From Lachnospiraceae bacterium (GTDB lineage: Bacteria; Bacillota; Clostridia; Lachnospirales; Lachnospiraceae), in contig JAILNV010000083.1 of NCBI GenBank assembly GCA_024691125.1, positions 1 through 61,641 of the forward strand: DNA of 61,641 bases, in the 5' to 3' direction. Within the stretch, counting starts at the first letter, position 1; every line of letters begins with the position of its first letter. The notes under the pieces are model-generated. The model was given only the letters and a program-made list of their open reading frames with translations, was not told where the DNA came from and did no database searches. Made by a program: the position numbers and the translations under genes. This document shows, in pieces, positions 22,201-47,257 of this stretch.

Positions 22201-23206
22201 TCGGCATATCCCCGATTGGTATGTCTACGATAGATGATATATCAGGAATCTCGGGTACTTCGGGAATTACTGGTGTCTCAGGCATTTCCGGTACTTCCGG
22301 CACTTCGGGTATCTCTGGCATTTCCGGTGCCTCAGCGACTTCCGGTATCTCAGGCATCTTCGGTGCCTCAGGTACTTCCTGCATTTCCGGTATCTCAGGT
22401 GCCTCGTCAGATATCGGCATATCGTCAGGTATAGGCGTGTCCCCTATGGGCATATCTCCTATGGGCATCTCATTTATCGGCATATCCCCAATTGGCATGT
22501 CTTCTATGGGCATGTCGCTGATCGGCATATCCCCAATTGGCATATCCCCGATTGGCATGTCTCCGATAGATGATATATCCGGAATCTCGGGTACCTCAGG
22601 AATTACTGGTGTCTCAGGCATTTCCGGTACTTCCGGCACTTCAGGTATCTCTGGCATTTCCGGCATTTCAGGCGCCTCAGCAACTTCCGGTATCTCCGGT
22701 ATTTCAGGGGCCTCGTCAGATATCGGCATATCCCCGATTGGTATGTCTCCGATAGGCATGTCTTCTATAGATGATACATCCGGCATCTCGGGTACTTCAG
22801 GAATTTCAGGTGCCTCAGGAATCTCAGGCACTTCCTGCTCCTCTGTCGATACACCCTCTAATGAAGAATAATCTTCTGCTATAGTATCATCCACCACAGT
22901 ATCTGCTGCCCCGGCATTATCAATCGAAGTTTCATCTTCGGCAGACGTATCAACAGACTCCTCGGATTCTGGATTTTGATCAGCTTCGGATTCAGGATCA
23001 CCTCCAAAGACATCATCAAAGTAGTCCATATCCGAATCATCCGAGTAATCTTCCTCATCCTCCTCATCATCAGCCAAAGATGCAAACAGCTCAGCCACGG
23101 AAGGCATTTCGTTCTTTCTCGACCGGTTCGCAACTTTCTCCGGTTCATTATCAGAACCTTCTATATTGTTCAATAAATTATTCAGATAATCCTCTGTTGC
23201 GCTCAT
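19226..23206 (-). CDS. Giant acidic tandem-repeat protein with one membrane span and FliM-like motifs
   Basis: 1326 residues. An Asp/Glu-rich N-terminus (1-125) is followed by a Pro-Glu-Ile/Val/Met block and more than thirty PIGDM/PISDM pentapeptides (about 125-490), further acidic regions, a Lys-rich stretch (KKEK units, about 840-900 and 1040-1075), a single TM (about 1079-1101), then about 225 residues with helical TPR-like character. The lysines before the TM predict the repeats inside the cell and the C-terminus outside. MMSEAEMDALLAAF (502) and MMSEDEVDQLLKSI (759) resemble the FliM/FliN N-terminal CheY-binding motif. Its own promoter is at 23.25 kb. No homologous family was recognised; function unknown. 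Confidence 0.85.
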   Translation of the reverse strand: MSATEDYLNNLLNNIEGSDNEPEKVANRSRKNEMPSVAELFASLADDEEDEEDYSDDSDMDYFDDVFGGDPESEADQNPESEESVDTSAEDETSIDNAGAADTVVDDTIAEDYSSLEGVSTEEQEVPEIPEAPEIPEVPEMPDVSSIEDMPIGDIPIGDMPISDEAPEIPEIPEVAEAPEMPEMPEIPEVPEVPEMPETPVIPEVPEIPDISSIGDMPIGDMPIGDMPISDMPIEDMPIGDMPINEMPIGDMPIGDTPIPDDMPISDEAPEIPEMQEVPEAPKMPEIPEVAEAPEMPEIPEVPEVPEMPETPVIPEVPEIPDISSIVDIPIGDMPISDMPIGDMPIGDIPISDMPIGDMPIGDMPIGDMPIGDMPISDMPMGDMPIGDIPISDMPIEDMPIGDMPINEMPIGDMPIGDTPIPDDMPISDEAPEIPEMQEVPEAPEIPEMPEVPEMPEIPEVPEEPEIPETPEIPEVPEMPEVTPEPTPEPEPNQAEELEDDMMSEAEMDALLAAFDEKEKKKKERSEEAELDAMFEKLMDDSGLNTISEDIPGEDTDSVLGDENFNSDVLDGVSFEELNKAIEDAEDKPDLPSIDEIGKEIMSDIGMEMENVSEDSLVSGMEGMGGTDETGANPGTSESADSLDEELNSLLADIDTSMDSTDSLDMSDLGSNADMKALSEELGLTGSSAMSMEPGMDSDLGSDISSFADMDTDSGANIATDMDAGSPDGTEQSAGTDMSDIGLSEMGAEDEYNPPSDQMMSEDEVDQLLKSIEEMGEPTGNAVDADAELSDIIAGIEDDADIAQIGDLLDKNDNFEAVDPSVTDQGEHDPVADILKEVDGDGKDEEELSPREKKKKEREEKKAQKQKEKEEKKAQKEKEKEEKRKAKEAKKKGLPVSDEEGEEGKGEEGAEDVEKKEDAPGLTAKEIEYNEKMEKALSGMELSDAEEYSNATLDGTDKKEKSTEKMGFFKRLIKSLLAVPGEEDEDEEGGSGVFAEETAKDIAKDGAADNEKILKEMGDDEGSKAKEKKKKEKKPKKEKPKKEKPKKEKKPKKEKKPKKEKQPRDSELFKMPRLPKKKVALIMICTLSFGVLIGMSAMVIPYYNDMNDAYVSFEERDYKKTYMSLLGHTLNEEQQVLYDKNLILYRLQQKLRSYSNYYELGMTADALNALVQATGDVDEQRENAQRYGITEQFDELDNKITSELDEKFGVSKDQAREWLAIRDGQEYTRALYNYVDENSVSGRPGAYDINTQNNANYSNPVIDGEESEFRNTLTEPVTTTEGDGAAEDVETEPENEPENPVNESDDTGNSTNTDIPELLDGMEEDM
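21750..22850. repeat. 15-bp tandem repeats and a 486-bp internal duplication
   Basis: Inside the acidic repeat gene. The 15-bp unit encodes the pentapeptide PIGDM/PISDM. A longer block is duplicated with a period of 486 bp (162 codons): the segment at about 21874-22045 recurs at about 22360-22531 with few differences, including an identical GTGTCCCCTATGGGC at 21951 and 22437. All periods are multiples of three, so the frame is kept. Confidence 0.85.
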
Positions 23207-28378: not shown

Positions 28379-31300
28379 TCATATATTCAATATTCTGTAC
28401 GCAATGTTTTTCATCATATGTAACACTATTCCCCAATCCCTGTTAAGCGACTGCGGAAGCGACGGAACACGGTCATACAGTATCTGCATATATTCAAGCT
28501 CACTGTCACCATAGTCGAGTATTTCAAATGAGTATACGGTATGCCCGCCCGATCTGGAGTTTTTAAGACTACATACTACCGTATTAAGAACAGCGGTATA
28601 ATCCTCACTTTCGATCGTAACTTCCACCCTGTCTCCTATCCTGAGATCCGCTTCTTCATCCAAAAATACCCTGACATTATGTTCATTCATATATGTCGTA
28701 ACACCGTATAAGACATTTCCCGCTCCTGCATTCTTAATGCTTACAGGCTCTGCATCAATTACATTTACGTCTTCGTTATCTTCATCCCTGCCGGAAATAA
28801 GGAATACGGACATTCCAAGGAAATATGCATTCCGCAATATCCAGAATAAAAGGATTATAAGGCTCATAATATGCATGGTCTGCATAAGATACAGTATTCT
28901 TATACATCCTATTCCCGAGAGCGCCAACAGGACAATGAACGGCATCATGGTCTTTAATTTATTTTTCTCGATCTTCTTTTTGCCTGATTTATCGGTTACG
29001 GCAAACGTCGTGGTTGTAATGCCCAAAGACTCTTTTAATATCGGGAAGAGCATATAAGGCATTACGCTTGTCTCATGGATACCGCTCCATTTAAGCGAAA
29101 TAAGATTACCGCTTAAGAAGCGCAGACATATTTCCTGCATAACAAACATCGGGAACCAGTAAATAAGCAGGTCCAGCCAGCTGCAGGCAAATACCGGTAT
29201 GGCAAATGCCGAGAACATCAGGGGCGAGATCAGGTAGATCAGGTTCTTGATCGGTGAATACCAGTAACTTACGGAGCTTAAGTAACTGATCTTCTGTGCC
29301 GGTGACAGTCCCTTACGCCTTATCAGATGCAGTTTCCTTGCAGTACTTATAACTCCCCGGCCCCAGCGTTTTCTCTGCTGGATATGTTCCTTAAAGGTAT
29401 GGGGTGTCTCACCGTTAGCCAGCGGTTCGGGGAGCGCAAGGCTGACATAGCCGGCAGCTTCTATCAGCATTCCCGTAGCAAAGTCCTCGGTTATGGTTTC
29501 TGTATAGAAACCCCCGATCTCTTCCAGGGCAGCCCTGGAAAGTATCGTATTTGAGCCACCGTAAATAACGCTGTTGGTTGCGGTTTTGGCGACTTCGATC
29601 GTCCGGTAGAAGAAATCCTGCTCATTCGGAGCTGTCTTCTCTGAATACAGGGCATACTGGAACACATCGGGATCGTAAAAGCTCTGAGGTGTCTGAACAA
29701 ACCCGAGATCATACCGTTTATCTTCCGGTAACGCTTCGGACTTCTTCTTTGCATCAACAAAATACGGTATGGTCTTAAGCAGGAAATCGCTCTTTACTAT
29801 CATATCGGAATCAAGTGTTACAATATAAGGCGCACCTGTTTTTCCAAGAGCATTATTAAGGTTTCCCGCCTTGGCGCCCTTATTATCCGGACGGTCGAAA
29901 TATCCGATCCCCATTTCAGCTGCAAGCTCCCTCATCTCGGGACGCCGGTTATCATCACACAGCCAGATATGTATCTTCGACTTATCGGGATACTTTAAAT
30001 GATTACAGCCGTTTATCGTCTTCCGCAGCAGTTCTGCCGGCTCGTTATATGTGGCAATGAATATATCGACATCCGGATATTCTTCATCTTTAATAACCGG
30101 AAGTTCATATCTGCGCAGTCCCATAAGATTACCGTATAAGACCAAAGCCTCGCAGAAGCCGATCATTTCAACTATAAGAAGCACCACATTCGCGATTATG
30201 GTTATTATCATTCCGTTCTTTGGTATGGAAAATCTGATACGCCATATAAGATATGTGATCGTAAAGAAGATACCCAGGATCAAAACCACATGCTTTAACG
30301 CCATGCTTATGTTTTTTTCACTTTTGACCGCTGTTTTGTCACTGTCATAAAGATCCTTAAATGTATTATACCTTTTAAAGGTATATAAACTTATACTTCT
30401 CACAACGATCATGCTGAGGATCAGGATCAGCAGTGAAAGAAGTGCAAGCCCCGGCCAGGCCTTGGCTACCGTATAATCCCGATGATTCAAGGTATCTGTT
30501 ATCCATGCCGGGAGCATAATGCCTTCGTCCTCGGGAATTTCTATAAATCCCGGCGTTTCTCCCTGGATAAGACTTCTAACCCATTTACCATAAGAGGTAA
30601 GAGAATCCTCCGATATTCCGGCACCGGGAATATACCATGGCTTAAACATTGCCGAAGATTCATTCTTGTTTGAGAAGCTCCAGACAGTATAGCTGATCTT
30701 ATTATCATTTAAAATTTTGAACCATTTTACAGCCGATTCATAGTCGACCTTTCCGTCACCGCTTGATTCGCTGAGACCACACTCCGTAACAAATACGGGA
30801 ATCCTCTTATTAATGGCCATAAGTAACTCGTTCTGCGGGTCGGACTTATGCGTCGCGGCATAAAAATGCAGTGTATACATGAGGTTATCATATAGAAGAG
30901 GCCGCCGCCTGACCATCATAAGATTTCTGGAATAGTCCGGAGTTCCGACAATGATAACAGAATCCGGGGCGTTCTTCCTTATGACCGGTATTACCTGGTT
31001 GGCATAAGTAAATATATCCGACCAGAATGTTTCACCGTTCGGTTCGTTACATATCTCGTACAGAACATTGGGCGCATCGGCATATTCTGAAGAAATAATA
31101 TCAAAGAATTCCATCGATTCCTTTAAATGGATATTGGGATTGGAATCCTCGAGAATATGCCAGTCGACAATGACATACATATCCGAAGCAATGGCGGCAT
31201 CTATTCCCTTTCGTACCAGTTCAAGCGTGGTATTGACCCCATCACCTTTATATTCTGTGGAATAAGCCGCAAGGCGCAGCAGATCACAGTTCCATGATTT

Positions 31301-31606
31301 TGATACAGTATCAATAAGTCCGTTATTTATAAAATCGGGATACCAGGTAAGTCCATGGGTACTTACTCCCCTTAACTGAACAGGCTTTGAGTTCTTATCC
31401 ACAAGCTGTCCGTTTTTTACACTCAGTTTACCGTTAACCGACGGGCGGGGAGTCTCAACCCGGCGCGTGTAGTTATCCTGATAAGATGCTTCTTCGGCAC
31501 AATAAACCGTTGTACACATTGAGAACAAAATAGACAAAATAAGAATAATACTTACCGAAAAATACAACTTTCCATGCCGTCTGATATCTTTTTTACGGAA
31601 TTTCAT
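28379..31606 (-). CDS. GH5 glycanase-GT2 cellulose synthase-like fusion with C-terminal PilZ-like domain
   Basis: 1075 residues from ATG 31606 (AAGGAGA upstream; an earlier in-frame ATG lacks a ribosome site). Order: signal/TM anchor (about 13-35); extracytoplasmic GH5 domain (about 55-350) with acid/base Glu in YEICNEPNGE (about 182) and nucleophile Glu in VTECGLSE (about 274); three TMs (about 385-510); cytoplasmic GT2 domain with DDNRR (about 552), TLDSD (about 598), TITEDF and QQRKRW (about 745); more TMs; and a beta-rich PilZ-like end (about 960-1060). The RxxxR and D/NxSxxG c-di-GMP motifs are not seen. It resembles clostridial CcsA and CcsZ joined in one chain. Likely role: making and trimming a beta-glucan. 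Confidence 0.9.
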   Translation of the reverse strand: MKFRKKDIRRHGKLYFSVSIILILSILFSMCTTVYCAEEASYQDNYTRRVETPRPSVNGKLSVKNGQLVDKNSKPVQLRGVSTHGLTWYPDFINNGLIDTVSKSWNCDLLRLAAYSTEYKGDGVNTTLELVRKGIDAAIASDMYVIVDWHILEDSNPNIHLKESMEFFDIISSEYADAPNVLYEICNEPNGETFWSDIFTYANQVIPVIRKNAPDSVIIVGTPDYSRNLMMVRRRPLLYDNLMYTLHFYAATHKSDPQNELLMAINKRIPVFVTECGLSESSGDGKVDYESAVKWFKILNDNKISYTVWSFSNKNESSAMFKPWYIPGAGISEDSLTSYGKWVRSLIQGETPGFIEIPEDEGIMLPAWITDTLNHRDYTVAKAWPGLALLSLLILILSMIVVRSISLYTFKRYNTFKDLYDSDKTAVKSEKNISMALKHVVLILGIFFTITYLIWRIRFSIPKNGMIITIIANVVLLIVEMIGFCEALVLYGNLMGLRRYELPVIKDEEYPDVDIFIATYNEPAELLRKTINGCNHLKYPDKSKIHIWLCDDNRRPEMRELAAEMGIGYFDRPDNKGAKAGNLNNALGKTGAPYIVTLDSDMIVKSDFLLKTIPYFVDAKKKSEALPEDKRYDLGFVQTPQSFYDPDVFQYALYSEKTAPNEQDFFYRTIEVAKTATNSVIYGGSNTILSRAALEEIGGFYTETITEDFATGMLIEAAGYVSLALPEPLANGETPHTFKEHIQQRKRWGRGVISTARKLHLIRRKGLSPAQKISYLSSVSYWYSPIKNLIYLISPLMFSAFAIPVFACSWLDLLIYWFPMFVMQEICLRFLSGNLISLKWSGIHETSVMPYMLFPILKESLGITTTTFAVTDKSGKKKIEKNKLKTMMPFIVLLALSGIGCIRILYLMQTMHIMSLIILLFWILRNAYFLGMSVFLISGRDEDNEDVNVIDAEPVSIKNAGAGNVLYGVTTYMNEHNVRVFLDEEADLRIGDRVEVTIESEDYTAVLNTVVCSLKNSRSGGHTVYSFEILDYGDSELEYMQILYDRVPSLPQSLNRDWGIVLHMMKNIAYRILNI

Positions 31607-31632
31607 ATAATTGTCTCCTTGTGATATTTTGC

Positions 31633-31675
31633 AGTAACTATTAAAAACAGCACATTGTTTTTCTATTCTGAATAG
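31633..31675. promoter_or_regulatory. Inverted repeat CTATTCTGAATAG plus degenerate motif copy in the GH5-GT2 leader
   Basis: CTATTC-T-GAATAG (31663-31675) is a perfect 6-1-6 palindrome. A degenerate copy of the window-wide motif (GTAACTATTAAAAACAG) lies at 31633-31649. Both are between the GH5-GT2 promoter and its ribosome site, where a repressor could act. Confidence 0.6.
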
Positions 31676-31703
31676 TTGTGAATATTTATGTATATTTACA
31701 GAT

Positions 31704-31732
31704 AGTATACTATGCCTGTATTCTTTTATCAA
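31704..31732 (-). promoter_or_regulatory. Promoter of the GH5-GT2 gene
   Basis: Minus strand TTGATA (31727-31732), 17 bp, TATACT (31704-31709). It predicts a leader of about 90 nt that includes the palindrome at 31663. Confidence 0.75.
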
Positions 31733-36580: not shown

Positions 36581-37531
36581 TCAGGCATCATCTCTGTTCA
36601 TCCGGTTTATGATAAGATATGAAATAATAAGCAGCAAACATCCGACCGAGCTCTGCAGAAAGGAAGCAGCCGATGAATAGCTGAAGTTAGCCTGCTGCAT
36701 GAGAGCCTTATATACATAAACATCCAGCGTCTGTGTTACAGGCTGAAGCGAGTTCGAATCAAGCGGGACCTGATAGAACAGGCCGAAATCCGAGGTGAGA
36801 ATGCTTCCTATATTTAATATGAATATTGTAGTTATCGTAGTTCTGAGCTGAGGTAAAGTAATATTGAACACTCTGTCGAAGAATCCCGCGCCGTCCAGCG
36901 CTGCGCTTTCATAGAGGCTGCGGTCTATTGCGGTTATCGCGCACATATATATGATCATTGAATATCCCATGGATTTCCAGATTCCGATGCCTATAAGTAT
37001 CCCTCTCCAATACTGCGGCGACTGATACCACTGCACCGCCTGCGCGCCAAATATCTTAAGAACATGATTTATCTGTCCCTCATCTGTGGCCAGAAAGCCG
37101 TAAAGGCAATAACCCACTATTACCCAGGAGAGAAAATACGGAAGAAGCAGGATCATCTGCACCATTCCGGAGAATGTCCTGCCATGCACCTCCGTAAGTA
37201 ATATGGCCAGAAATACCGGTATAACGATTCCCGTTATCAGGAATACCACATTGTAAAAAAGCGTATTAAACATGATGTCCGGCATATCGGAAGATCTTAT
37301 AAGGAAGGAAAAATTATCAAGCCCCACCCACGGGCTGTTGACAAAGAGGTTCTTAAAAAGTCCCTCACCGGGTCTGGCCTTAAAATTCTTAAACGCAAAG
37401 ACTACGCCGAACATCGGCAGATAGCAGAACAGGCAGTACCATACCGCTGCCGGCACTGCCAACAGGGTAAGCTGCCATGTTTCCTTCCTGAAGCCCGCAT
37501 GCTGTTTTGGTTTTTTTCTCTTAAACATCAC
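36581..37531 (-). CDS. CUT1 sugar ABC transporter permease, LplB type
   Basis: 316 residues, six TMs. The N-terminus (RKETWQLTLLAVPAAVWYCLFCYLPMFGVVFAFKNF) and EAA loop (YESAALDGAGFFDRVFNITLPQLRTTI) match LplB/YteP permeases that import oligosaccharides or uronides. It overlaps the binding-protein gene by 4 nt (ATGA). No ATPase is in this operon; systems of this kind commonly share an MsmX-type ATPase encoded elsewhere. Confidence 0.93.
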   Translation of the reverse strand: MMFKRKKPKQHAGFRKETWQLTLLAVPAAVWYCLFCYLPMFGVVFAFKNFKARPGEGLFKNLFVNSPWVGLDNFSFLIRSSDMPDIMFNTLFYNVVFLITGIVIPVFLAILLTEVHGRTFSGMVQMILLLPYFLSWVIVGYCLYGFLATDEGQINHVLKIFGAQAVQWYQSPQYWRGILIGIGIWKSMGYSMIIYMCAITAIDRSLYESAALDGAGFFDRVFNITLPQLRTTITTIFILNIGSILTSDFGLFYQVPLDSNSLQPVTQTLDVYVYKALMQQANFSYSSAASFLQSSVGCLLLIISYLIINRMNRDDA

Positions 37532-39024
37532 TCAATCCATTCATCCAGTTTACTGTTTATGTCTTCAAGCAGCTCGTCCATCCCCGCTGCCTTCATTCTC
37601 TTCCGCATCTTCGGGATGACCTCGTCGGGATCACTGGTTCCTGTGCGTAGCTCGGCTGCATAATCACTGTATATTGCCTGAAGCGCCGTGATTATATCCT
37701 CCTTGGGTGTCTGGTCATAAGTAAATCCATTGGTCCTGCTGTATATACCATCAGTCCTGTATTCTTCATAAACACCCTCCCACTGGTTGGGATCCGCCAG
37801 GAAATCGGTGCTTACCGACTCAACCGAAGCATTCACCACGGAACCTGTAAGATACAGTCTGGTATTATACCTGTCCTGCCCTGTCTTAAGCCTTAATACA
37901 GTTCCGTTCGGCAGATATTCAAAATGGGTGCCTTCTATACCGTAACCCAGTATATCCCTGAATTTCCTGTCTGTGCCGAGAAGTTCAAGGTACTTCAGAC
38001 AGGCCTTTGCATGTTCTTCATCACAGGCCGCACAGATTCCGAACATGGCTCCCTGCTCACTTGTTCTCGAAATATAAGGGCCGTCATATATTGAAGTTTT
38101 TACATTAAATCCCCAATCTGACGGATTCGAATATCCCTGATATCCCTTCCATGCAACACCCCATCGTACAGGTATCGTTTTGTCCGCAGCCGTCGAATCG
38201 ATTGTGGCGGCATCCGGATGTATATATCCGGCCATATACCATTTATGAAGCAGCCTGAATCTGTTCATAAGCTCTTCACTGTCCCAGAAAGCTATCGCCC
38301 GGGGTTTTTCACCCTCCGCGGTATAAGGGATGACCACGATCGGGTTCACGATCCTTTCAAGGAAATTAAGATAACCCGCAGCTCCGCCCTTACTCATTTC
38401 CAGAGGATATTCCGAAGGATGATCCTCCTTGTAGGCCTTAAGATATGGCTCAATATCGGCGAAATCCATCCTCTCCGGGATCTTCATCCCTTTCTCCCTC
38501 TCAAAATAATCCGAGTTCAGTCTGAACATGTTTTCAGAACCCATATCCTTAAGGGTGGGAACACCGTAAATATGTCCGTCTATCTTCGCACAGTCCCAGT
38601 AATCGCCTATGATCCGGTACAGGTCGGGAGTTTCTTCCCTTACAAGCTCCGTGATGTCATAGTAGAGCTCTTCCGACGCGTTTTTATCGAATCTGTTCAC
38701 AAATGAGCTTGTAAATACCATATCATAATATTCACCGGAAGCCATCATAAGATCGATCTTATCGGATGGCTGGAATTCAAGATCAACCGTCACCCCTATC
38801 TTTTGTTGCGAAACTTCGTTTGCTGCAGCAATAACCTTCTTTGCATCAAGGGGCACATTTCCGTTATCATAAGTGACAACCCTCAGTCTTATGCCGTCTC
38901 CATCATTATCTGATGCCGTATTTTCCGAGCATCCCCCAAGCATAAGCGCATCAAGACATGCAAGCATGATTATTGAACAGACCGTAACATAGTATATAAA
39001 CCGTCTATTTTTCATATCCTTCAT
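37528..39024 (-). CDS. CUT1 sugar ABC transporter, extracellular binding lipoprotein (LipO type)
   Basis: 498 residues; signal sequence with lipobox MLGGC near residue 32, then a large family 1 binding domain (about 50-490) as in LipO/YtcQ proteins that work with LplB/YtcP permeases. The substrate is unknown, probably an oligosaccharide. Overlaps both flanking permease genes by 4 nt. Confidence 0.92.
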   Translation of the reverse strand: MKDMKNRRFIYYVTVCSIIMLACLDALMLGGCSENTASDNDGDGIRLRVVTYDNGNVPLDAKKVIAAANEVSQQKIGVTVDLEFQPSDKIDLMMASGEYYDMVFTSSFVNRFDKNASEELYYDITELVREETPDLYRIIGDYWDCAKIDGHIYGVPTLKDMGSENMFRLNSDYFEREKGMKIPERMDFADIEPYLKAYKEDHPSEYPLEMSKGGAAGYLNFLERIVNPIVVIPYTAEGEKPRAIAFWDSEELMNRFRLLHKWYMAGYIHPDAATIDSTAADKTIPVRWGVAWKGYQGYSNPSDWGFNVKTSIYDGPYISRTSEQGAMFGICAACDEEHAKACLKYLELLGTDRKFRDILGYGIEGTHFEYLPNGTVLRLKTGQDRYNTRLYLTGSVVNASVESVSTDFLADPNQWEGVYEEYRTDGIYSRTNGFTYDQTPKEDIITALQAIYSDYAAELRTGTSDPDEVIPKMRKRMKAAGMDELLEDINSKLDEWIE

Positions 39025-39938
39025 CCCTTTACCGATCCCACAGCCATTCCGGTCTTTAAGAAACGCTGGAAAAACGGGAACAACAGCATCACAGGCAATA
39101 TCACCACAACAACCATTGCCATTCTTATCGTTACGGCAGGCGGCGTATAAGACTGCATGCCCGAGAAATACTGTGCATCCCTTGTAATGGTATCTATGCT
39201 CCTGTTCATGTTTACAAGTACATACTGAAGCGGATACAGTTCCGTATGATTACTGTCTATATACAGAAGAGAAGGATACCAGCTGTTCCAGTACAGAAAT
39301 ATCTGAAATACTGCAACCGTCATAATTACCGGCTTGGAGAGCGGAAGTACAATTCGTGTAAGTATCTTAAAATGTGAACATCCGTCCAGTTTCGCCGCTT
39401 CAATCAGTGAATCGGGAACAGATTCCCTGAAATAATTTCTCATAATAAGGATATACCAGGTCGAGCACAGTCCCGGCACTATCAGCGCAATATATGTGTT
39501 TTGAAGATGAAATATCTGCGTATATACCATGTAGTTAGACACCAGGCCGCCCGAAAACAGCATGGGAATCATGATAAATACGAGAAGAGCATTCCTTAAA
39601 CGGTATTCCGTTCTCGAAAGAGAATATGCCATCGGACACATCAGTATAAGCCCGACAATCGTCGCAGATAAGGTTATCAGGACCGAATTGCCCAAGGCTC
39701 CGGCCAGATACACGCCCGAAGCAACCAGATACCTGTAAGCTTCAAGAGAGAATGAATTCGGAAAGAAGCTGTACCCTTCCTGTGTCACGCTTTGCTGTGA
39801 AGAAAAAGATACTATGAAAACAAGCAAAACAGGAAGAAAGCACACAAAACACAGGAACGCAAACAACAGAGTCACGATCCTGTCAGTTCTTACCGAATAT
39901 GCACTGTCTACAGGTCTTATATAATCATCCATCTCCAT
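39021..39938 (-). CDS. CUT1 sugar ABC transporter permease, LplC/YtcP type
   Basis: 305 residues, six TMs; EAA loop SLIEAAKLDGCSHFKILTRIVLPLSKPVIMTVAVF and the C-terminus FLKTGMAVGSVKG are typical of YtcP. First gene of the three-gene operon. Its ribosome site is poor: two in-frame ATGs (39938, 39932) lie near weak GAG/GGAG sequence, so the exact start is uncertain. Confidence 0.92.
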   Translation of the reverse strand: MEMDDYIRPVDSAYSVRTDRIVTLLFAFLCFVCFLPVLLVFIVSFSSQQSVTQEGYSFFPNSFSLEAYRYLVASGVYLAGALGNSVLITLSATIVGLILMCPMAYSLSRTEYRLRNALLVFIMIPMLFSGGLVSNYMVYTQIFHLQNTYIALIVPGLCSTWYILIMRNYFRESVPDSLIEAAKLDGCSHFKILTRIVLPLSKPVIMTVAVFQIFLYWNSWYPSLLYIDSNHTELYPLQYVLVNMNRSIDTITRDAQYFSGMQSYTPPAVTIRMAMVVVVILPVMLLFPFFQRFLKTGMAVGSVKG

Positions 39939-40109: not shown

Positions 40110-40138
40110 TTTACAATCCCGTCCCGATAGTTTATAAT
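40110..40138 (+). promoter_or_regulatory. Strong promoter of the secreted repeat protein
   Basis: TTTACA (40110-40115), 17 bp, TATAAT (40133-40138). A leader of about 100 nt follows, ending in AAAGGAGA about 10 nt before ATG. It predicts high expression. Confidence 0.85.
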
Positions 40139-40244
40139 GTGACTGATGCATTCAAGAAAAATAATAGATTGGGCCCAATACAAAAAGTATAATTTATCTA
40201 TTTATTTGCATGATTTTGCTTATTTATGAAAGGAGATTTTTATT

Positions 40245-41180
40245 ATGAAGAAAACTGAGGTTATAAACAAGATTGGTAAGTTAATCGGAGCAGCTGCCAC
40301 ATTGGCGCTCACAGTATTTGTTACAACAGCACCCGTACAGGCTGACGTTATTTCGGAAGCGCAGAGCGGATATGAAAAGGGTATGGCTTATCTTCAGTCA
40401 ACACAGCTTTCTCCAGATTCTTCTGTCATAAAGGAAGCACAGAGCGGATACGAAAGAGGCATGGCTTATCTTCAGTCAATACAGCAGTCTACAATAGCAG
40501 CAGCGATCGAAACAGATCGTCAGGCAAGCGCAGGCGCTGTTGCCGGACAGGCTTATCTGGATGCGATCGAAGCAGCTACCGCACAGGCTGCCGCTGCAAG
40601 AGATGCTGAGGCTAAGAGTGGATTAGAGCGTGGTTATCAGTATCTGCAGTCTATTAATGAAGCTACCGCCAAGGCTGCTGCTGCAAGAGATGCCGAAGCT
40701 ATAAGCGGTTTAGAGCGCGGCAGACAGTATCTGCAGTCTATTAATGAAGCTACTGCCAAGGCTGTTGCTGCAAGGGATGCCGAAGCCGTAAGCGGCGCCG
40801 AAAGAGGATTGGCTTATCTGTGGTCTGTAAATCCTTCTTTGGTTCCGGAGGCAACGAAGGATATCCAGAGAGGTTATGAATATCTGGATTCCATTAACAG
40901 GGCTACCGTTGTTGCTGCCAATGCAAGAGATGCCGAGGCTGCTGCAGGTGCCGAGAAAGGTCTTGCTTACCTTAACTCAATAAATGAGGCTACTGCCAAG
41001 GCCGCAGCTGCAAGGGATGCACAGGCTGTGGCAGGAGGCGAGGCAGGCCTCGCCTATCTGAACTCCATAAACGTTGCAACTGCCAACGCTATGGCTGAAA
41101 CCAAAAGACAAGCTGCTGACGGACTTACAAGAGGTTGGGCTTACTTACAGGCAATACATGCTACAGTAGGAGCACCCTAA
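40245..41180 (+). CDS. Secreted alpha-helical protein of about ten 29-residue repeats
   Basis: 311 residues. A clean signal peptide (1-33, cleavage after APVQA) is followed by repeats to the C-terminus. The best-preserved unit reads AAAARDAEAxSGLERGxQYLQSINEATAK; others vary around G-x-x-Y-L-x-S-I-N. Alanine-rich with evenly spaced charges, it should form amphipathic helices or a coiled solenoid. No cysteine, sortase motif, SLH or LysM domain is seen, so it is probably released or loosely wall-bound. It has its own strong promoter and terminator, opposite in strand to its neighbours. No known family is recognised. It could be a surface-layer-like, adhesive or biofilm matrix protein, or a signalling repeat; this is inference. 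Confidence 0.88.
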   Translation: MKKTEVINKIGKLIGAAATLALTVFVTTAPVQADVISEAQSGYEKGMAYLQSTQLSPDSSVIKEAQSGYERGMAYLQSIQQSTIAAAIETDRQASAGAVAGQAYLDAIEAATAQAAAARDAEAKSGLERGYQYLQSINEATAKAAAARDAEAISGLERGRQYLQSINEATAKAVAARDAEAVSGAERGLAYLWSVNPSLVPEATKDIQRGYEYLDSINRATVVAANARDAEAAAGAEKGLAYLNSINEATAKAAAARDAQAVAGGEAGLAYLNSINVATANAMAETKRQAADGLTRGWAYLQAIHATVGAP

Positions 41181-41251
41181 GAAATACGAAAATACAAATC
41201 GGGTTTGATTGGGTTATAAAGTTTAAATGATATAAAAAACACTAACACGCG

Positions 41252-41289
41252 CAAAAACAACAGGAAGACGGAGCTTCCTGTTGTTTTTG
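41252..41289. terminator. Bidirectional terminator between convergent genes
   Basis: A perfect 16-bp stem (41252-41267 with 41274-41289) with a 6-nt loop. CAAAAACAACAGGAAG and its complement give A/U tails on both sides. It serves the repeat protein (+) and the cyclic-nucleotide-binding gene (-). Confidence 0.92.
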
Positions 41290-41296
41290 TACTGTT

Positions 41297-41803
41297 TTAT
41301 ACTTTATAATTCATCACGTTTATCTTATTGTATGGTCCGCCCGGCGGAAAACCACTGCCATATACCGCGTAACTCCTGAGGTTTCGCTTCGCCTGCCGTA
41401 TAACATCAACATCTCCTGTCGAACCCTTCTTAATTTCTTTTGCCAGTATATCTATCTGTCGTTGCATCACTAACATCATATTTGCCATATTTTTCATTAT
41501 ATCTATGATATTCCTGTGATTTTCCTGTACGAAATCCCCTATTTCTCCCTCGGATATCCGCAATGCATACACGTTGTCAAACGCTACCACCGTATATATT
41601 GACGGCTGATGAAGAAGCAGACCGAATTCCCCGAAGCACGCAGGCGCTCCAATGAGTCCGAGCAGGACTTCATTTTCCGTACCGTATCCGGTATACAGTT
41701 CTGCATGCCCCTTTATTATCTTATACATATCTGTACTCTTCTCTCCCTCTCTGAGGATCATACAATCCCTCGGGAACTTAATGATCTTTCCGTTATCTGC
41801 CAT
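41297..41803 (-). CDS. Cyclic-nucleotide-binding-domain protein without a DNA-binding domain
   Basis: 168 residues from ATG 41803 (GGAGGGG 8 nt upstream; an in-frame ATG at 41839 has its ribosome site only 2 nt away). An N-terminal CRP-like cNMP fold (about 10-110; KFPRDCMILREGEKSTDMYKIIKGHAELYTG, then ACFGEFGLLLHQPSIYTVVA). It carries FGE but lacks the full phosphate-binding RSA. A helical segment and a Gly/Pro-rich tail follow; there is no HTH. It may be a stress or redox sensor or part of a complex. Downstream of the nuclease/ATPase gene on the same strand. Confidence 0.8.
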   Translation of the reverse strand: MADNGKIIKFPRDCMILREGEKSTDMYKIIKGHAELYTGYGTENEVLLGLIGAPACFGEFGLLLHQPSIYTVVAFDNVYALRISEGEIGDFVQENHRNIIDIMKNMANMMLVMQRQIDILAKEIKKGSTGDVDVIRQAKRNLRSYAVYGSGFPPGGPYNKINVMNYKV

Positions 41804-41904
41804 CCGGCCGCCCCTCCGTTTCTCAAGCTGCCCGGACATCTCTCCTATGTCCGGAAGCTTTTATATTTGCTATCCGCATTTGCGTATTCATTAAAGATTC
41901 TCTG

Positions 41905-43344
41905 TCAGTGGCTCTGAAGAACCGACAGTAAAACCTCGAATACTTCAGGATTGTTCCTTACTATTATGCCCAATGATGATTTTGCTCTGTTAAGACCATG
42001 AAACAGACGGCGAACCCGGTATTCTCCTTCTGCGCCGCATCTTAAGTATCCGTCCTCATCGTATCCGAAAGTCTCGTCCATGAGCATTACCACCTTATCG
42101 AACTCACGGCAGGTTGCTTTAATATTATCATCAATATACGTATATCCGTATTCAATGCAGGCCTCAAGAAGGCGCCTCTCCTCTTCCTCGTCATTGGCAT
42201 AATACAGCATCACTGCCGGATACCTCTTCATTTTATGATTTCCCGTGCATCGCATTATACAGCTTATAAACGAAGAAAGCTCACTGTTCATCCTTATTCT
42301 GTTGGTAAGCCTGTATTTCACTATATCCTTATTCGCATTTACGGCTTCACCTGTATCGAGAGGACGTTCCTTTGGGCAGATAACTGCTTCATGGTCATAG
42401 GATATAATAACGTTTCTACCCGATCTGCTGCTGTATCCGATCAGCTCCTTCAGGACATCAGGCTTCATTCTGTGCCCTTCATCAACAAATATATAGTCAT
42501 AACCCTCAAGTTCCGGCAATGTGTCAATTCCATGCGCCGGATAGAAATCAATTCTCTTGAGCCTTTTATCCAATTTATCCATCTCCTCCGGGAAAGATCC
42601 GAAATGAAGGACTATCACCCTTTTCGCAGAAGATGTCAGCTCCATCGCAAGATCATAGAGCAGCAGAGTCTTCCCGGTACCCGGTAATCCGGTAAATCCC
42701 TGAACACGCGGCTGAGCTTGAGGCAACGGTCGTGACAGACCTTTAATGATATGTTTTTTAATATCCTTCTGCTGTGAGGTAAGAAAATAATTTCCTTTAA
42801 GGAAACGATCCGGATCGGTAAGCGGTGAAATAAGATAGCTTTCCTCTTTAAAAAAGCTGTCTATATTATCTTCTACACATCCGTTCTGAGCCGCAATATC
42901 CCTATACAGCGTTTCGAAGCTCTCATCGATAAGGTTTCCGCTGTTGCTCAGACGGACCAGTCTGTCTTCACTGCTTAAATATGTGTATGAACGGATAGAC
43001 CTGTTAAGCGAAGCCAGATAACTCCGGTTCAGCATAAGCTGCCGCTTAATACGGTCATCTTCCACGTTATGGCTTTTAAGCTCAATATTGATCACCGTAT
43101 CACTGTTGATACTCAGCAGGTCAAACTCCTTTCCAAGCTTTGGAATCGTATATGAATAGAAGAAATCCAGCTTCCCTATAGATGCTCCGCACTCCATAAG
43201 CCTGTCGCAAAGCGCTGTCAGCCCTTCTATTTCCCAGCCCTTTATCTTAAGGAAGTATTCTCTTTTCGACATCTGGCGTTCGAGTCTTGCCAGATCACTG
43301 CTCTTCCCTACCCTTGTCAGTGCATAAATATTTATTGTTTTCAT
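41905..43344 (-). CDS. Nuclease-like/SF1-helicase-like ATPase (DUF2075 type)
   Basis: 479 residues. The N-terminal part (about 1-190) has a possible PD-(D/E)xK pattern: Asp in GKEFDLLSI, then INIELKSHN. The C-terminal part is a P-loop motor: Walker A GLPGTGKT (about 218-225), Walker B YDYIFVDEGHR, ISYDHEAVI, and the motif VI-like HGLNRAKSSLGIIV. This resembles NERD-helicase and DUF2075/Schlafen-type ATPases, some of which act in phage defence. No toxin, methylase or other defence gene adjoins it. Divergent from hydE. No strong ribosome site was found. Confidence 0.75.
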   Translation of the reverse strand: MKTINIYALTRVGKSSDLARLERQMSKREYFLKIKGWEIEGLTALCDRLMECGASIGKLDFFYSYTIPKLGKEFDLLSINSDTVINIELKSHNVEDDRIKRQLMLNRSYLASLNRSIRSYTYLSSEDRLVRLSNSGNLIDESFETLYRDIAAQNGCVEDNIDSFFKEESYLISPLTDPDRFLKGNYFLTSQQKDIKKHIIKGLSRPLPQAQPRVQGFTGLPGTGKTLLLYDLAMELTSSAKRVIVLHFGSFPEEMDKLDKRLKRIDFYPAHGIDTLPELEGYDYIFVDEGHRMKPDVLKELIGYSSRSGRNVIISYDHEAVICPKERPLDTGEAVNANKDIVKYRLTNRIRMNSELSSFISCIMRCTGNHKMKRYPAVMLYYANDEEEERRLLEACIEYGYTYIDDNIKATCREFDKVVMLMDETFGYDEDGYLRCGAEGEYRVRRLFHGLNRAKSSLGIIVRNNPEVFEVLLSVLQSH

Positions 43345-43532: not shown

Positions 43533-44567
43533 ATGTACAGAAAATTAGCAGACAAGCTGGCAAAAAACTCTGTTCTTGACAGAAATGAATATCTCACACT
43601 TATACGAAACAGAGACTCAGTCAGAGAATATACCGCACAGCTTGCAACAGAAACACGAAGACATCATTACGGCGACCGCATTTTCATCCGCGGTCTTATA
43701 GAATTTACCAATTATTGCAGGAATAACTGCTACTACTGCGGTATAAGAGCCGGAAACAAATGTGTCGAAAGATACCGGCTCAGTCCTGAGGAAATACTCT
43801 CATGCGCTGACTCGGGCTATGAGCTTGGATTCAGGACCTTTGTACTGCAGGGTGGCGAAGACAAACACTTCACGGACGATTTGCTGGTTTACATAATCTC
43901 AGAAATAAAGAAACGGCATCCCGACTGTGCAGTAACCTTATCTGTCGGCGAACGATCCTTTGAAAGTTACCGGCTGCTCAGAGAAGCCGGCGCAGACAGA
44001 TATCTGCTTCGTCATGAAACCGTAAATCCATCGCATTACGGAATGCTTCATCCGCAGAACATGAGTCATGACAACAGGCTGAAATGTCTTTATGCTCTAA
44101 AGGAACTCGGTTATCAGACAGGAGCCGGTTTTATGGTCGGATCGCCCGGGCAGACCGATGAAGATCTTGCAGATGAAATGCTGTTTTTAAAGGAGCTTGA
44201 TCCCCAGATGGTCGGGATAGGCCCTTTTATTCCGCATAAGGATACACCATTTAGTACAGAGGAACCGGGAAGCGCGGAAATGACGACTTTTCTTCTCTCC
44301 CTCATACGCCTGACTCTGCCCAGGGTTCTTCTTCCCGCTACTACCGCTCTCGGGACCATAGATCCCCTGGGACGTGAAAGAGGAATCATGGCCGGCGCCA
44401 ATGTACTTATGCCTAACCTCTCTCCTGCCGGTGTCAGAAATAAATACCTTCTATATGATAATAAGATATGTACCGGCGATGAAACCGCGCAATGTATAGA
44501 ATGCTTGAAAACCCGGATTACAAAAACCGGTTGTATGATAGTTACTGAAAGGGGCGATTATAAATGA
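43533..44567 (+). CDS. hydE: [FeFe]-hydrogenase H-cluster maturase, radical SAM
   Basis: 344 residues. Radical SAM enzyme that contributes to the dithiomethylamine-bridged diiron subcluster of [FeFe] hydrogenase. The cluster motif is NYCRNNCYYCG (Cx3Cx2C, about 70-77), followed by FRTFVLQGGEDKHFTDD. The HydE-like sequence MVGIGPFIPHKDTPF is near residue 230. Its TGA overlaps the hydG ATG (ATGA). Confidence 0.96.
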   Translation: MYRKLADKLAKNSVLDRNEYLTLIRNRDSVREYTAQLATETRRHHYGDRIFIRGLIEFTNYCRNNCYYCGIRAGNKCVERYRLSPEEILSCADSGYELGFRTFVLQGGEDKHFTDDLLVYIISEIKKRHPDCAVTLSVGERSFESYRLLREAGADRYLLRHETVNPSHYGMLHPQNMSHDNRLKCLYALKELGYQTGAGFMVGSPGQTDEDLADEMLFLKELDPQMVGIGPFIPHKDTPFSTEEPGSAEMTTFLLSLIRLTLPRVLLPATTALGTIDPLGRERGIMAGANVLMPNLSPAGVRNKYLLYDNKICTGDETAQCIECLKTRITKTGCMIVTERGDYK

Positions 44568-45985
44568 TCAAATATGATGCACATTCCATGAAGGCAGAGG
44601 AATTCATTAATGACGAGGAAATCCGCCAGACTCTGGAATATGCGGGCGAGCATAAGAATGACATCTCGCTGATAGATGAAATAATCAGAAAAGCCAAAGA
44701 CCGCAAGGGCTTAAACCATCGCGACGCCAGTGTGCTCTTAGCCTGCGAGGATCCGGATAAGATAAGGGAAATATATGATCTTGCCGAACAGATCAAGAAG
44801 GATTTCTACGGAAACCGTATTGTATTGTTTGCTCCGCTGTATCTTTCGAACTACTGCGTTAATGGCTGTCTCTACTGTCCATACCATCTTAAGAACAGGC
44901 ATATCCCGAGAAAGAAGCTGACTCAGGAGGAGGTAGCCAGGGAGATTACAGCTCTACAGGATATGGGACATAAACGCCTTGCCATCGAATCCGGCGAAGA
45001 TCCCGTCAATAATCCCATCGAATATATCCTTGACTGTATAAACACTATCTACTCAGTCAAGCATAAGAACGGAGCAATACGGAGAGTAAATGTAAACATT
45101 GCCGCTACCAACGTAGAGAATTACCGTAAGCTTAAGGATGCAGGCATCGGAACCTATATTCTGTTTCAGGAAACATATAATAAGAAGAATTATGAGACGC
45201 TCCACCCCACCGGACCCAAGCATGATTACGCATACCACACCGAGGCGATGGATCGTGCCATGGAAGGTGGTATCGATGATGTGGGTGTGGGTGTACTGTT
45301 TGGTCTTGATAACTACGCATATGAATTCGCCGCTCTGCTCATGCATGCCGAACACCTTGAAGCTGTTCACGGAGTAGGACCGCATACCATCAGCGTTCCC
45401 AGAGTAAAGAAAGCCGATGACATTGATCCCGGAGATTTCGATAATTCACTTAGCGATGAAATGTTCTGTAAGATAGCCGCCTGCATACGTATAGCGGTTC
45501 CCTATACCGGTATGATAATATCGACCCGCGAGACACCCGAGGTTCGCGAGAAGATCATCCGTCTCGGCGTAAGCCAGATAAGCGGCGGCTCAAGAACATC
45601 CGTAGGCGGTTACACCGAAGCTGAGCGTCCTCATGATACGGAACAGTTCGATGTCTCGGATAACCGGACCCTTGATGAGGTGGTAAACTGGCTTATGCGG
45701 GCAGGATACATTCCCTCATTCTGCACAGCCTGCTACCGCGAAGGCCGAACCGGAGACCGTTTCATGGAGCTGTGCAAATCAGGACAGATTCAGAACTGCT
45801 GCCACCCCAACGCCCTTATGACGCTCAAGGAATTCCTTATAGATTACGCCTCAGAGGATACGGCTAAGCTTGGTGAAGCAATGATAGACAGAGAGATCAA
45901 TAACATTCCTGCACAAAAAGTAAGGGAAATAGTAAGAGAACGCCTTGTTAAGATAGCTGCCGGAGAAAGAGACTTCCGGTTTTAG
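44564..45985 (+). CDS. hydG: [FeFe]-hydrogenase maturase, tyrosine lyase, radical SAM
   Basis: 473 residues, the usual length. It splits tyrosine to CO and cyanide ligands for the H-cluster. The radical SAM motif is CVNGCLYCPYHLKN (Cx3Cx2C). The C-terminal auxiliary-cluster motif is CTAC followed 22 residues later by cysteine (Cx2Cx22C), as known for HydG. Translationally coupled to hydE. Confidence 0.97.
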   Translation: MIKYDAHSMKAEEFINDEEIRQTLEYAGEHKNDISLIDEIIRKAKDRKGLNHRDASVLLACEDPDKIREIYDLAEQIKKDFYGNRIVLFAPLYLSNYCVNGCLYCPYHLKNRHIPRKKLTQEEVAREITALQDMGHKRLAIESGEDPVNNPIEYILDCINTIYSVKHKNGAIRRVNVNIAATNVENYRKLKDAGIGTYILFQETYNKKNYETLHPTGPKHDYAYHTEAMDRAMEGGIDDVGVGVLFGLDNYAYEFAALLMHAEHLEAVHGVGPHTISVPRVKKADDIDPGDFDNSLSDEMFCKIAACIRIAVPYTGMIISTRETPEVREKIIRLGVSQISGGSRTSVGGYTEAERPHDTEQFDVSDNRTLDEVVNWLMRAGYIPSFCTACYREGRTGDRFMELCKSGQIQNCCHPNALMTLKEFLIDYASEDTAKLGEAMIDREINNIPAQKVREIVRERLVKIAAGERDFRF

Positions 45986-46003
45986 CATAAACCGGACAGA
46001 TTT

Positions 46004-46015
46004 GTAACTATTCAG
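46004..46015 (+). repeat. Partial intergenic motif GTAACTATTCAG
   Basis: The first 12 bases of the window-wide motif, placed between the hydG stop and the hydF start. The second half (AACAGG) is not conserved. Confidence 0.45.
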
Positions 46016-46042
46016 ATGCCAATACAGGAGAACGTCAATTAC

Positions 46043-47257
46043 ATGAGTCTTAACGATACACCTACGGCCGAACGCACTCATATCGGATTCTTCGGTCTTC
46101 GAAATGCCGGGAAAAGCAGCCTTGTAAACAGGATAACCAACCAGGAAATGTCCCTTGTCAGCGATATCAAGGGCACAACTACCGATCCGGTGAAGAAAAG
46201 TATGGAACTGCTGCCCCTCGGCCCCGTTACCATTATAGATACACCGGGCTGCGATGATACGGGCAGCCTCGGAGAACTGAGGGTTAAAAAGACCAAAGAT
46301 ATTCTTAAAACATGTGATATTGCCATACTTGTTACCGAACATCATACACCGGAGTCTGCTGAGAATGAGCTCATAGATCTGATAAAAAGCCGTTCAATCC
46401 CCTACATTATCGTCAAAAACAAATGCGATACCGATAATGTAGGCAATAAAGCCGTGAAGAGCGATATAAATGATCAGGAGGATTTCTCCGACATCCGTGT
46501 AAGTGCCCTAACGGGTGCCGGTATCGAAGAACTTAAAGAGCGTATTGCCCTGCTTACAAAAGATATGATCAAATCAGTACGATTGGTTGCGGATCTGCTG
46601 CATCCTCATGATACAGTAGTTCTCGTGATCCCCATAGACACTTCAGCACCCAAAGGCAGACTGATACTTCCCCAGCAGCAGGTGATCAGAGATATCCTTG
46701 ATGCAGGCGCTGTAAGCATGGTCACGGGAGTTAATGATCTTCCTGATACGCTGGTTTCGCTTAAGAAGGAGCCCGCTCTTGTAATTACGGATTCTCAGGC
46801 CTTCGGAAGAGTAATGAAGATGGTTCCCGAAACCATCCCTATTACATCATTCTCCATTCTCATGGCAAGATACAAAGGATTCCTGAAGGAAGCCCTTAAG
46901 GGCGCCGAAACTATAGGAAGGCTTGAAGACGGAGCCAATATCCTTATATGTGAAGGCTGTACTCATCACAGACAATGTGAAGATATAGGAACGGTCAAGC
47001 TTCCGAAATGGCTTAAAGAATACACCGGCAGGGAGCTTAAGCTTTCATTTACTTCAGGGCACGGATTCCCCGAAGATCTGTCTCCGTATGATCTTATCAT
47101 ACACTGCGGTGCCTGCATGCTCAATGACCGGGAGGTAAGCAGCCGTATGTCAGAAGCTCAGGCTGCATCAGTACCATTTACCAACTATGGAACGGCTATT
47201 GCTTTCATGAACGGCATACTTTCCCGTTCTGTCGCACCTCTCCTGCCCTTCCTTTGA
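46043..47257 (+). CDS. hydF: [FeFe]-hydrogenase maturation GTPase and scaffold
   Basis: 404 residues. It accepts the diiron precursor from HydE/HydG and passes it to the hydrogenase. GTPase: GLRNAGKSSLVNRI (Walker A), DTPGCDD (G3), NKCD (G4). The C-terminal [4Fe-4S] site is CTHHRQC followed by HCGAC, matching the CxH...HCxxC pattern. The start is ATG 46043 (MSLNDTPTAER, as in homologues); an ATG at 46016 lacks a ribosome site. It converges on the HAD-like gene with only 16 nt between stops and no terminator seen. Confidence 0.97.
   Translation: MSLNDTPTAERTHIGFFGLRNAGKSSLVNRITNQEMSLVSDIKGTTTDPVKKSMELLPLGPVTIIDTPGCDDTGSLGELRVKKTKDILKTCDIAILVTEHHTPESAENELIDLIKSRSIPYIIVKNKCDTDNVGNKAVKSDINDQEDFSDIRVSALTGAGIEELKERIALLTKDMIKSVRLVADLLHPHDTVVLVIPIDTSAPKGRLILPQQQVIRDILDAGAVSMVTGVNDLPDTLVSLKKEPALVITDSQAFGRVMKMVPETIPITSFSILMARYKGFLKEALKGAETIGRLEDGANILICEGCTHHRQCEDIGTVKLPKWLKEYTGRELKLSFTSGHGFPEDLSPYDLIIHCGACMLNDREVSSRMSEAQAASVPFTNYGTAIAFMNGILSRSVAPLLPFL

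Follow-up and report, generated by a model that had tools for sequence, protein, structure and literature searches.

The window analysed here, the whole 61,641-nucleotide stretch of contig JAILNV010000083.1 (assembly GCA_024691125.1, Lachnospiraceae bacterium), holds a plus-strand gene for an alanine-rich repeat protein, flanked by two genes on the minus strand (37528-39938 and 41297-41839). The locus raises the question of what such a repeat protein is made for, and whether its units build a structure outside the cell or bind something there.

A signal peptide and ten 29-residue units

The repeat gene occupies positions 40245-41180 of the plus strand in the open reading frame list (311 codons). 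Its first 33 residues (40245-40343, +) read by eye as a signal peptide, with a lysine-containing start, a hydrophobic core and a predicted cut between VQA and D. The same type of ending, P-[VA]-[KQ]-A-[DE], was recognised by eye in all 17 aligned family members. The mature protein of 278 residues (40344-41177, +) has a mass of 28.7 kDa, an alanine content of 25.5% and a pI of about 4.8, and consists of ten units of the 29-residue type. Their anchors, of the form G-x-x-Y-L (G-x-x-Y-L-x-x-I-like), fall at residues 46, 72, 101, 130, 159, 188, 210, 239, 268 and 297, giving spacings of 26, 29, 29, 29, 29, 22, 29, 29 and 29, seven of the nine being exactly 29. The self-match of the protein reached 0.43 at offset 29, whereas in none of 1000 composition shuffles did the best value between offsets 3 and 119 rise above 0.195. 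The initial annotation had described ten repeats behind a signal peptide, and this description is confirmed. Compared as DNA, the three remaining 87-nt copies of the main family share only 61-75% identity with the reference copy, which marks an old protein repeat rather than a recent slippage array, the protein pattern having been kept and not the DNA.

Two segments depart from the regular unit. The sequence V-N-P-S-L-V-P (40827-40847, +), within the unit shortened from 29 to 22 residues, forms a kink or turn according to the alignment and AlphaFold2; N196, P197 and L199 are invariant in the 17 aligned members and P201 is kept in at least 90% of them. The C-terminus carries a conserved end, A-I-H-A-T-V-G-A-P (41151-41177, +), that does not resemble an anchor; H305 and G309 are invariant in the 17 members, and nine of these end in I-H-A-x-V-G-A-P. 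Pfam and NCBIfam scans of the repeat protein gave no anchor domain of the sortase, SLH or lipid type, and inspection by eye revealed neither an LPxTG motif with a hydrophobic tail nor a lipobox cysteine. As cysteine is absent from position +1 of the predicted mature protein, it is not a lipoprotein. The protein is thus apparently exported on the strength of its signal peptide, as had been proposed, while its designation as a surface product is unproven since no surface anchor was recognised.

Searches of Pfam, NCBIfam, PHROGs and the PDB sequences placed the protein in no named family, in line with the earlier remark that none was known for this unit. Pfam was queried with the window protein and ten homologues, NCBIfam with the window protein, and PHROGs with the window protein and four homologues; hits to families in these libraries were weak, taken as compositional and rejected. 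With E values up to 1, the Pfam scan of the window protein returned Exo70_N alone, below its cut-off. Terminase_5 marginally passed in two homologues (20.5 and 20.6 bits for a cut-off of 20.3), over 19 residues and with no stretch passing by itself, and PHROG matches down to 2.1e-5 in a diverged homologue likewise contained no passing stretch. As to a mobile-element origin, which was rejected, plasmid and phage sequences gave no match to the repeat protein at E up to 1e-5. A viral-contig match (28% identity over about 100 residues) lay inside a phage-like open reading frame and was judged compositional. Among the literature matches listed, from a search that subscription papers mostly escape, no paper dealt with the protein. 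The family is new in the libraries searched, yet structurally of a known kind.

Predicted helices and a conserved stripe

Two AlphaFold2 runs, based on shallow alignments of 17 and 9 rows and with the best of five models considered for each, agreed on two very long helices separated by a single non-helical residue, 196. Helix 1 spans residues 60-195 (40422-40829, +) and would be about 20 nm long if continuous; helix 2 spans residues 197-308 (40833-41168, +) and would reach about 17 nm. In one run, pLDDT values averaged over blocks of ten residues were 79-97 and 86-97, respectively. Mean pLDDT was 85.9 with the 17-row alignment and 88.0 with the 9-row alignment, with pTM of 0.57 and 0.54. AlphaFold2 readily gives alanine-rich sequences as single long helices. 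The helical design anticipated from the sequence is supported by the predictions, while the solenoid suggested as one possible fold was dropped, being present in neither run.

In order to see how the unit is conserved, we collected 121 units of exactly 29 residues from the 17 members, 103 of which are distinct. The ten positions that vary least are I5, T9, L2, G27, Y1, A12, A20, A18, A29 and D17, and glycine occupies position 23 in 75 and position 27 in 87 of the 103 units. On a helix making 8 turns per 29 residues, Y1, A12, G23, I5, R16, G27, T9, A20 and L2 are adjacent within 100 degrees, so that conserved residues line up in one stripe (L-I-T-A-R-A-G-G), which includes the conserved arginine. 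The conservation moment is largest at 8 turns (0.346, permutation p = 0.00046, or 0.006 over 14 frequencies). The units had been cut out at an anchor with a bias of its own towards positions 1, 2, 5, 6 and 27, so the test was repeated with these positions neutralised: the peak was still at 8 turns, but it was weaker (0.197, p = 0.017) and 10 turns came nearly equal (0.186). Cutting instead at R-D, an independent anchor, with positions 16, 17 and 19 neutralised, yielded 40 distinct units, a moment of 0.351 (p = 0.0001) and the same face angle of 42 degrees. A18, A29 and D17 are constant although they lie off the stripe, and the diverged subfamily exhibited no stripe peak (25 distinct units, p = 0.95). 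The irregular spacings of 18 and 22 residues, and those of 47 and 51 that contain them, are near whole turns, whereas 26 and 27 are not (7.17 and 7.45 turns) and 55 is also less close. In the core assignment that we adopted, the distances along the stripe, 3-4-3-4-4-3-4-4, can be read as a heptad and two hendecads. Hydrophobicity shows no peak at 8 turns (0.109 compared to 0.239 at 9 turns), indicating that the stripe is not a textbook hydrophobic seam. Altogether, the computations lend good support to the helix and to its conserved face.

Expression signals, distribution and genomic context

The gene is preceded by a sigma-70-type promoter, TTTACA-N17-TATAAT (40110-40138, +), with 11 of 12 consensus matches, and by a ribosome-binding site read from the sequence as GAAAGGAGA (40228-40236, +). 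A hairpin scan revealed an intrinsic terminator with a 17-pair stem and a T run (41251-41290, +), which may also serve the convergent gene. An RNA match of the sraL type over this terminator, on the minus strand, scored below the gathering threshold and was not believed. Promoter-like sites numbered 7 in the region for 6.0 expected, so that the promoter match is by itself weak proof; terminator-like sites numbered 4 for 2.5 expected, the hairpin at 41251-41290 being the longest. Homologous genes provided a comparison, made on 19 of the 22 family open reading frames from 21 clustered regions, with the start of the G021 gene one base off. In 14 of these 19 genes the best upstream site was TTTACA followed, after 17-18 bp, by a -10 element with no more than one mismatch; it lay 69-106 bp before the start, and the other five genes lacked it. 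The exact pattern occurred 7 times in the 3.52 Mb assembly, compared to once for a reversed-pattern control. A purine-rich element similar to GAAAGGAGA is also found upstream of homologous genes, and a terminator-like hairpin lies within 160 bp downstream of 12 of the 19 and is absent after seven. The promoter, the terminator and the orientation of the gene against its neighbours, as first pointed out, all stand.

Codon usage was assessed with a codon adaptation index (CAI) referenced to 19 ribosomal-cluster genes. The repeat gene scored 0.643, compared to 0.564 ± 0.023 expected for the same protein written in local codons, and the highest of 2000 such simulations was 0.642. This is above background and places the gene sixth of 43 when ranked with 42 hand-chosen genes of the window. 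A paralogue in the same genome (at C170), 74% identical, has a CAI of 0.743, within the ribosomal-cluster range of 0.637-0.774. The family is probably highly expressed, as the initial annotation had suggested, judging from this codon bias and from a promoter that has stayed with the gene in several locations. Compared with its orthologue in G008, the gene shows dN of 0.018 and dS of 0.452, and purifying selection on it is strong.

The genus that carries the family belongs to the rumen Lachnospiraceae. A search with the single protein matched 20 of the 37 genomes sampled from this genus, own genome included, at E up to 0.001, and a profile (A2) matched 21 of the 37 at 1e-5. The four named relatives are Lachnospiraceae metagenome-assembled genomes, two of them from goat rumen. 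Among 397 genomes sampled from the family Lachnospiraceae (own included), the single query added one match, in G260, which was rejected as it lies inside a transporter-like open reading frame. Profile A2 gave four further weak matches (E 0.0017-0.005), which were also dropped: three share a signal peptide or coiled-coil composition, and the fourth covers profile positions 3-41 only, in a stretch without a closed open reading frame of 150 residues. In a phylum sample of 398 genomes, own genome alone matched at 0.001.

These 397 and 398 genomes thus yielded no accepted relative outside the genus, with the exception of one possible diverged relative. A profile of the diverged subfamily matched a 192-residue open reading frame in G165, a genome of another genus (E = 6.6e-9). 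The aligned part is the N-terminus, 55% identical over 44 residues to a member in G028, and in both genomes the gene adjoins mscL (L020, 297-1920; L083, 1495-2073). Contamination of G165 is 6%, so that this open reading frame could be misbinned. The same profile also matched G213, at profile positions 1-54 and at the place of a weak match already dropped. The mscL neighbourhood may possibly be the ancestral location of the family. Diverged family genes occur as tandem pairs in G015, G028 and G029 (L016, 97-1983; L020, 297-1920; L021, 666-2349), with 29-residue units built around A-A-A-D-R-D, and one of them has nine successive spacings of 29 residues. The family therefore occurs in one genus and, in diverged form, possibly in one other.

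Within the genus, the gene and its promoter have moved together to a new place several times. The 21 regions compared fall into six contexts, each common to two or three genomes, and seven regions that stand apart, one of which (L049) yet shares genes with the recX context. Neighbours assigned by Pfam include recA, recX and RNase Y (L041), ribH and yicC (L045) and alaS (L051); recA recurs in six regions and two contexts. ABC ATPases are found near the family gene in four regions, and large signalling-type proteins in four and five. Open reading frames were picked greedily in this comparison, which missed at least one family gene (a longer copy in L051). The most telling of the recurrent neighbours, which adjoins the repeat gene in the window (41297-41839, -), is a small protein with a cNMP-binding domain. 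A homologue 58% identical adjoins the family gene of G010 (L043, 3408-3920) in an otherwise different context, and one 79% identical is found in G008 in the same context as the window. Since it neighbours the gene in three of the 21 regions, this protein is a lead rather than an established partner, although a link between the two is possible.

Other genes of the window deserve mention. A 1117-residue protein (28379-31732, -) combines an N-terminal GH5 cellulase domain with a family-2 glycosyltransferase in Pfam, and reads by eye as a putative cellulose synthase. A 1326-residue acidic protein (19226-23206, -) contains long arrays of short repeats of the M-P-I-G-D and P-E-I-P-E types, then a Lys-Glu-rich stretch and one hydrophobic segment; it had no Pfam match at E up to 0.001. 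Downstream of the repeat gene, 43533-47257 (+) encodes a radical-SAM protein and HydF, both assigned by Pfam, and HydG, recognised by eye, likely a HydE-HydG-HydF hydrogenase maturation set. Between them, 41905-43344 (-) encodes a 479-residue P-loop protein whose weak resemblance to the Schlafen group 3 helicase domain does not reach the Pfam cut-off.

Proposed packing, possible binding and comparison with known designs

We favour, with a probability of about 0.5, the reading in which the product is an abundant exported rod that packs through its stripe into coiled-coil bundles or fibres. The gene would make an abundant exported structural protein which, once the signal peptide is removed, would form very long alpha helices. 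Eight turns in 29 residues, or 3.625 residues per turn, come close to an undistorted helix and would keep the rod nearly straight. Leu2, Ile5, Thr9, Ala12, Arg16, Ala20, Gly23 and Gly27 of every unit would then face one side, next to Tyr1. The bulky Y-L-x-x-I residues of a helix would pack against the groove of small residues (A20, G23 and G27) of its neighbour; recurring every 43 Å, this contact would hold the rods together laterally in extracellular coiled-coil bundles or fibres. Between two arms, the conserved N-P-x-L-x-P break would act as a hinge or as a hairpin turn. In favour of this reading count the repeat spacing, the agreement of the two predictions, the conserved stripe, the irregular spacings of 18 and 22 near whole turns, purifying selection, codon bias, the retained promoter and the joint variation of arm lengths on either side of the break. 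Against it count the missing hydrophobicity peak at 8 turns, the arginine within the stripe, the lack of a stripe in the diverged subfamily, the nearly equal value at 10 turns in the neutralised test, the shallow alignments, the spacings of 26 and 27 residues, the rank of the gene in codon bias, and the failure to find a significant Foldseek match or an anchor. The odds that the rod associates with itself are about even; export in practice, abundance, fibre formation and a role in matrix or adhesion are what we infer from these features.

The rod could instead be a soluble secreted monomer or dimer, folded as a hairpin, whose stripe binds a glycan, host mucin, plant fibre or protein and which forms no fibre. 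We regard this as a serious but clearly less probable explanation. The stripe is conserved without being strongly hydrophobic and offers Arg, Thr and Tyr, and a hairpin fits both the N-P break and the lengths of the two arms flanking it, which rise together (Spearman 0.69, p = 0.02, for 11 of the 17 members, which are not independent). Foldseek gave no PDB match at E up to 0.001, and its non-significant entries include antiparallel hairpins, the chemoreceptor coming first (E = 0.13) and an Smc coiled coil third. These share long antiparallel helical arms with the model, but they are intracellular, match at E 0.13 or worse and have no family in common with it. Against binding, neither Pfam nor NCBIfam recognised a binding domain, and one might expect a binding face to show more variation from repeat to repeat than is seen in the stripe.

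Several other readings account for part of the data. A lipid-surface or foam-active protein in the style of apolipoproteins, perilipins or synucleins, lying as an amphipathic helix on membranes or air-water interfaces, would suit a long helix near 3.6 residues per turn that is rich in alanine and has no anchor. It is improbable, since the hydrophobic moment of the unit is low at 3.625 residues per turn and the units often have a conserved glycine at positions 23 and 27. A tandem precursor cut into many small signal or antimicrobial peptides could likewise be expected to show a signal peptide, similar units and a near-consensus promoter. It is very improbable: by eye, no dibasic or other constant cleavage site separates the units, conservation tracks the helix phase and not one short core peptide, and the recurrent neighbour clusters, few of which were scanned, do not look like modification or peptide-export genes. 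A stress-protection or ice-binding helix, of the LEA group 3 or type I antifreeze style, is hardly credible: alanine is abundant and Foldseek listed the very long helix of the hyperactive type I antifreeze protein of winter flounder (4ke2, 22% identity), an alanine-rich protein with 11-residue repeats, but at a non-significant E of 0.97, offset 11 was outside the 12 strongest self-matches, the LEA group 3 model included in Pfam was not matched at E up to 1, and two of the four named relatives come from goat rumen, which is warm and wet.

The packing rod can be taken further, to a bacterial counterpart of coiled-coil silk, a bolder proposal that we consider rather unlikely. The product would be a highly expressed, secreted, supercoil-free 29/8 helix with an Ala/Gly groove and a Y-L-x-x-I ridge, zipped every 43 Å into extracellular fibres; gain and loss of whole repeats would tune fibre length among species of the genus, and the gene with its promoter would form a mobile, self-contained cassette. 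To our knowledge, it is unusual for a Gram-positive exoprotein to be designed as very long helices with a near-straight 29/8 period. Should the rod self-assemble, the known bacterial matrix polymers would gain a coiled-coil fibre tunable by its repeats, and biomaterials a simple, modular unit. The protein would also offer a direct way into the role of a gene strongly conserved in one genus of rumen Lachnospiraceae.

Two known systems invite comparison. SF-assemblin is described as a protein of about 30 kDa with an alpha-helical rod of ~240 residues made of consecutive 29-residue motifs, forming 2-nm protofilaments (PMC6070942, PMC8435291). The repeat protein likewise has consecutive 29-residue units in a long, predicted helical rod. 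However, SF-assemblin is a eukaryotic, intracellular protein of flagellar roots, whose head is non-helical and whose motifs each comprise four heptads and a skip residue, whereas the unit of the repeat protein can be read as a heptad with two hendecads and an Ala/Gly-rich stripe, and a signal peptide is present. Pfam includes an SF-assemblin model, which was not among the matches of the window protein at E up to 1; given this and the apparently differing unit, we did not file the repeat protein as an SF-assemblin, nor as a silk protein. Honeybee silk, a structural material, is made of proteins with a central alanine-rich region of ~210 residues forming a long coiled coil with small core residues (PMC12284834). 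The likeness is one of structural design, an alanine-rich long coiled coil; no kinship was detected in the Pfam scan of the window protein. The repeat protein is rich in alanine and has Ala and Gly in its stripe, but its period is 29/8 instead of plain heptads. The insect silk is a heptad-based heterotetramer of four proteins, whereas the repeat protein has an internal 29-residue repeat. By working principle, SF-assemblin and honeybee silk would be the closest designs to the predicted rod.
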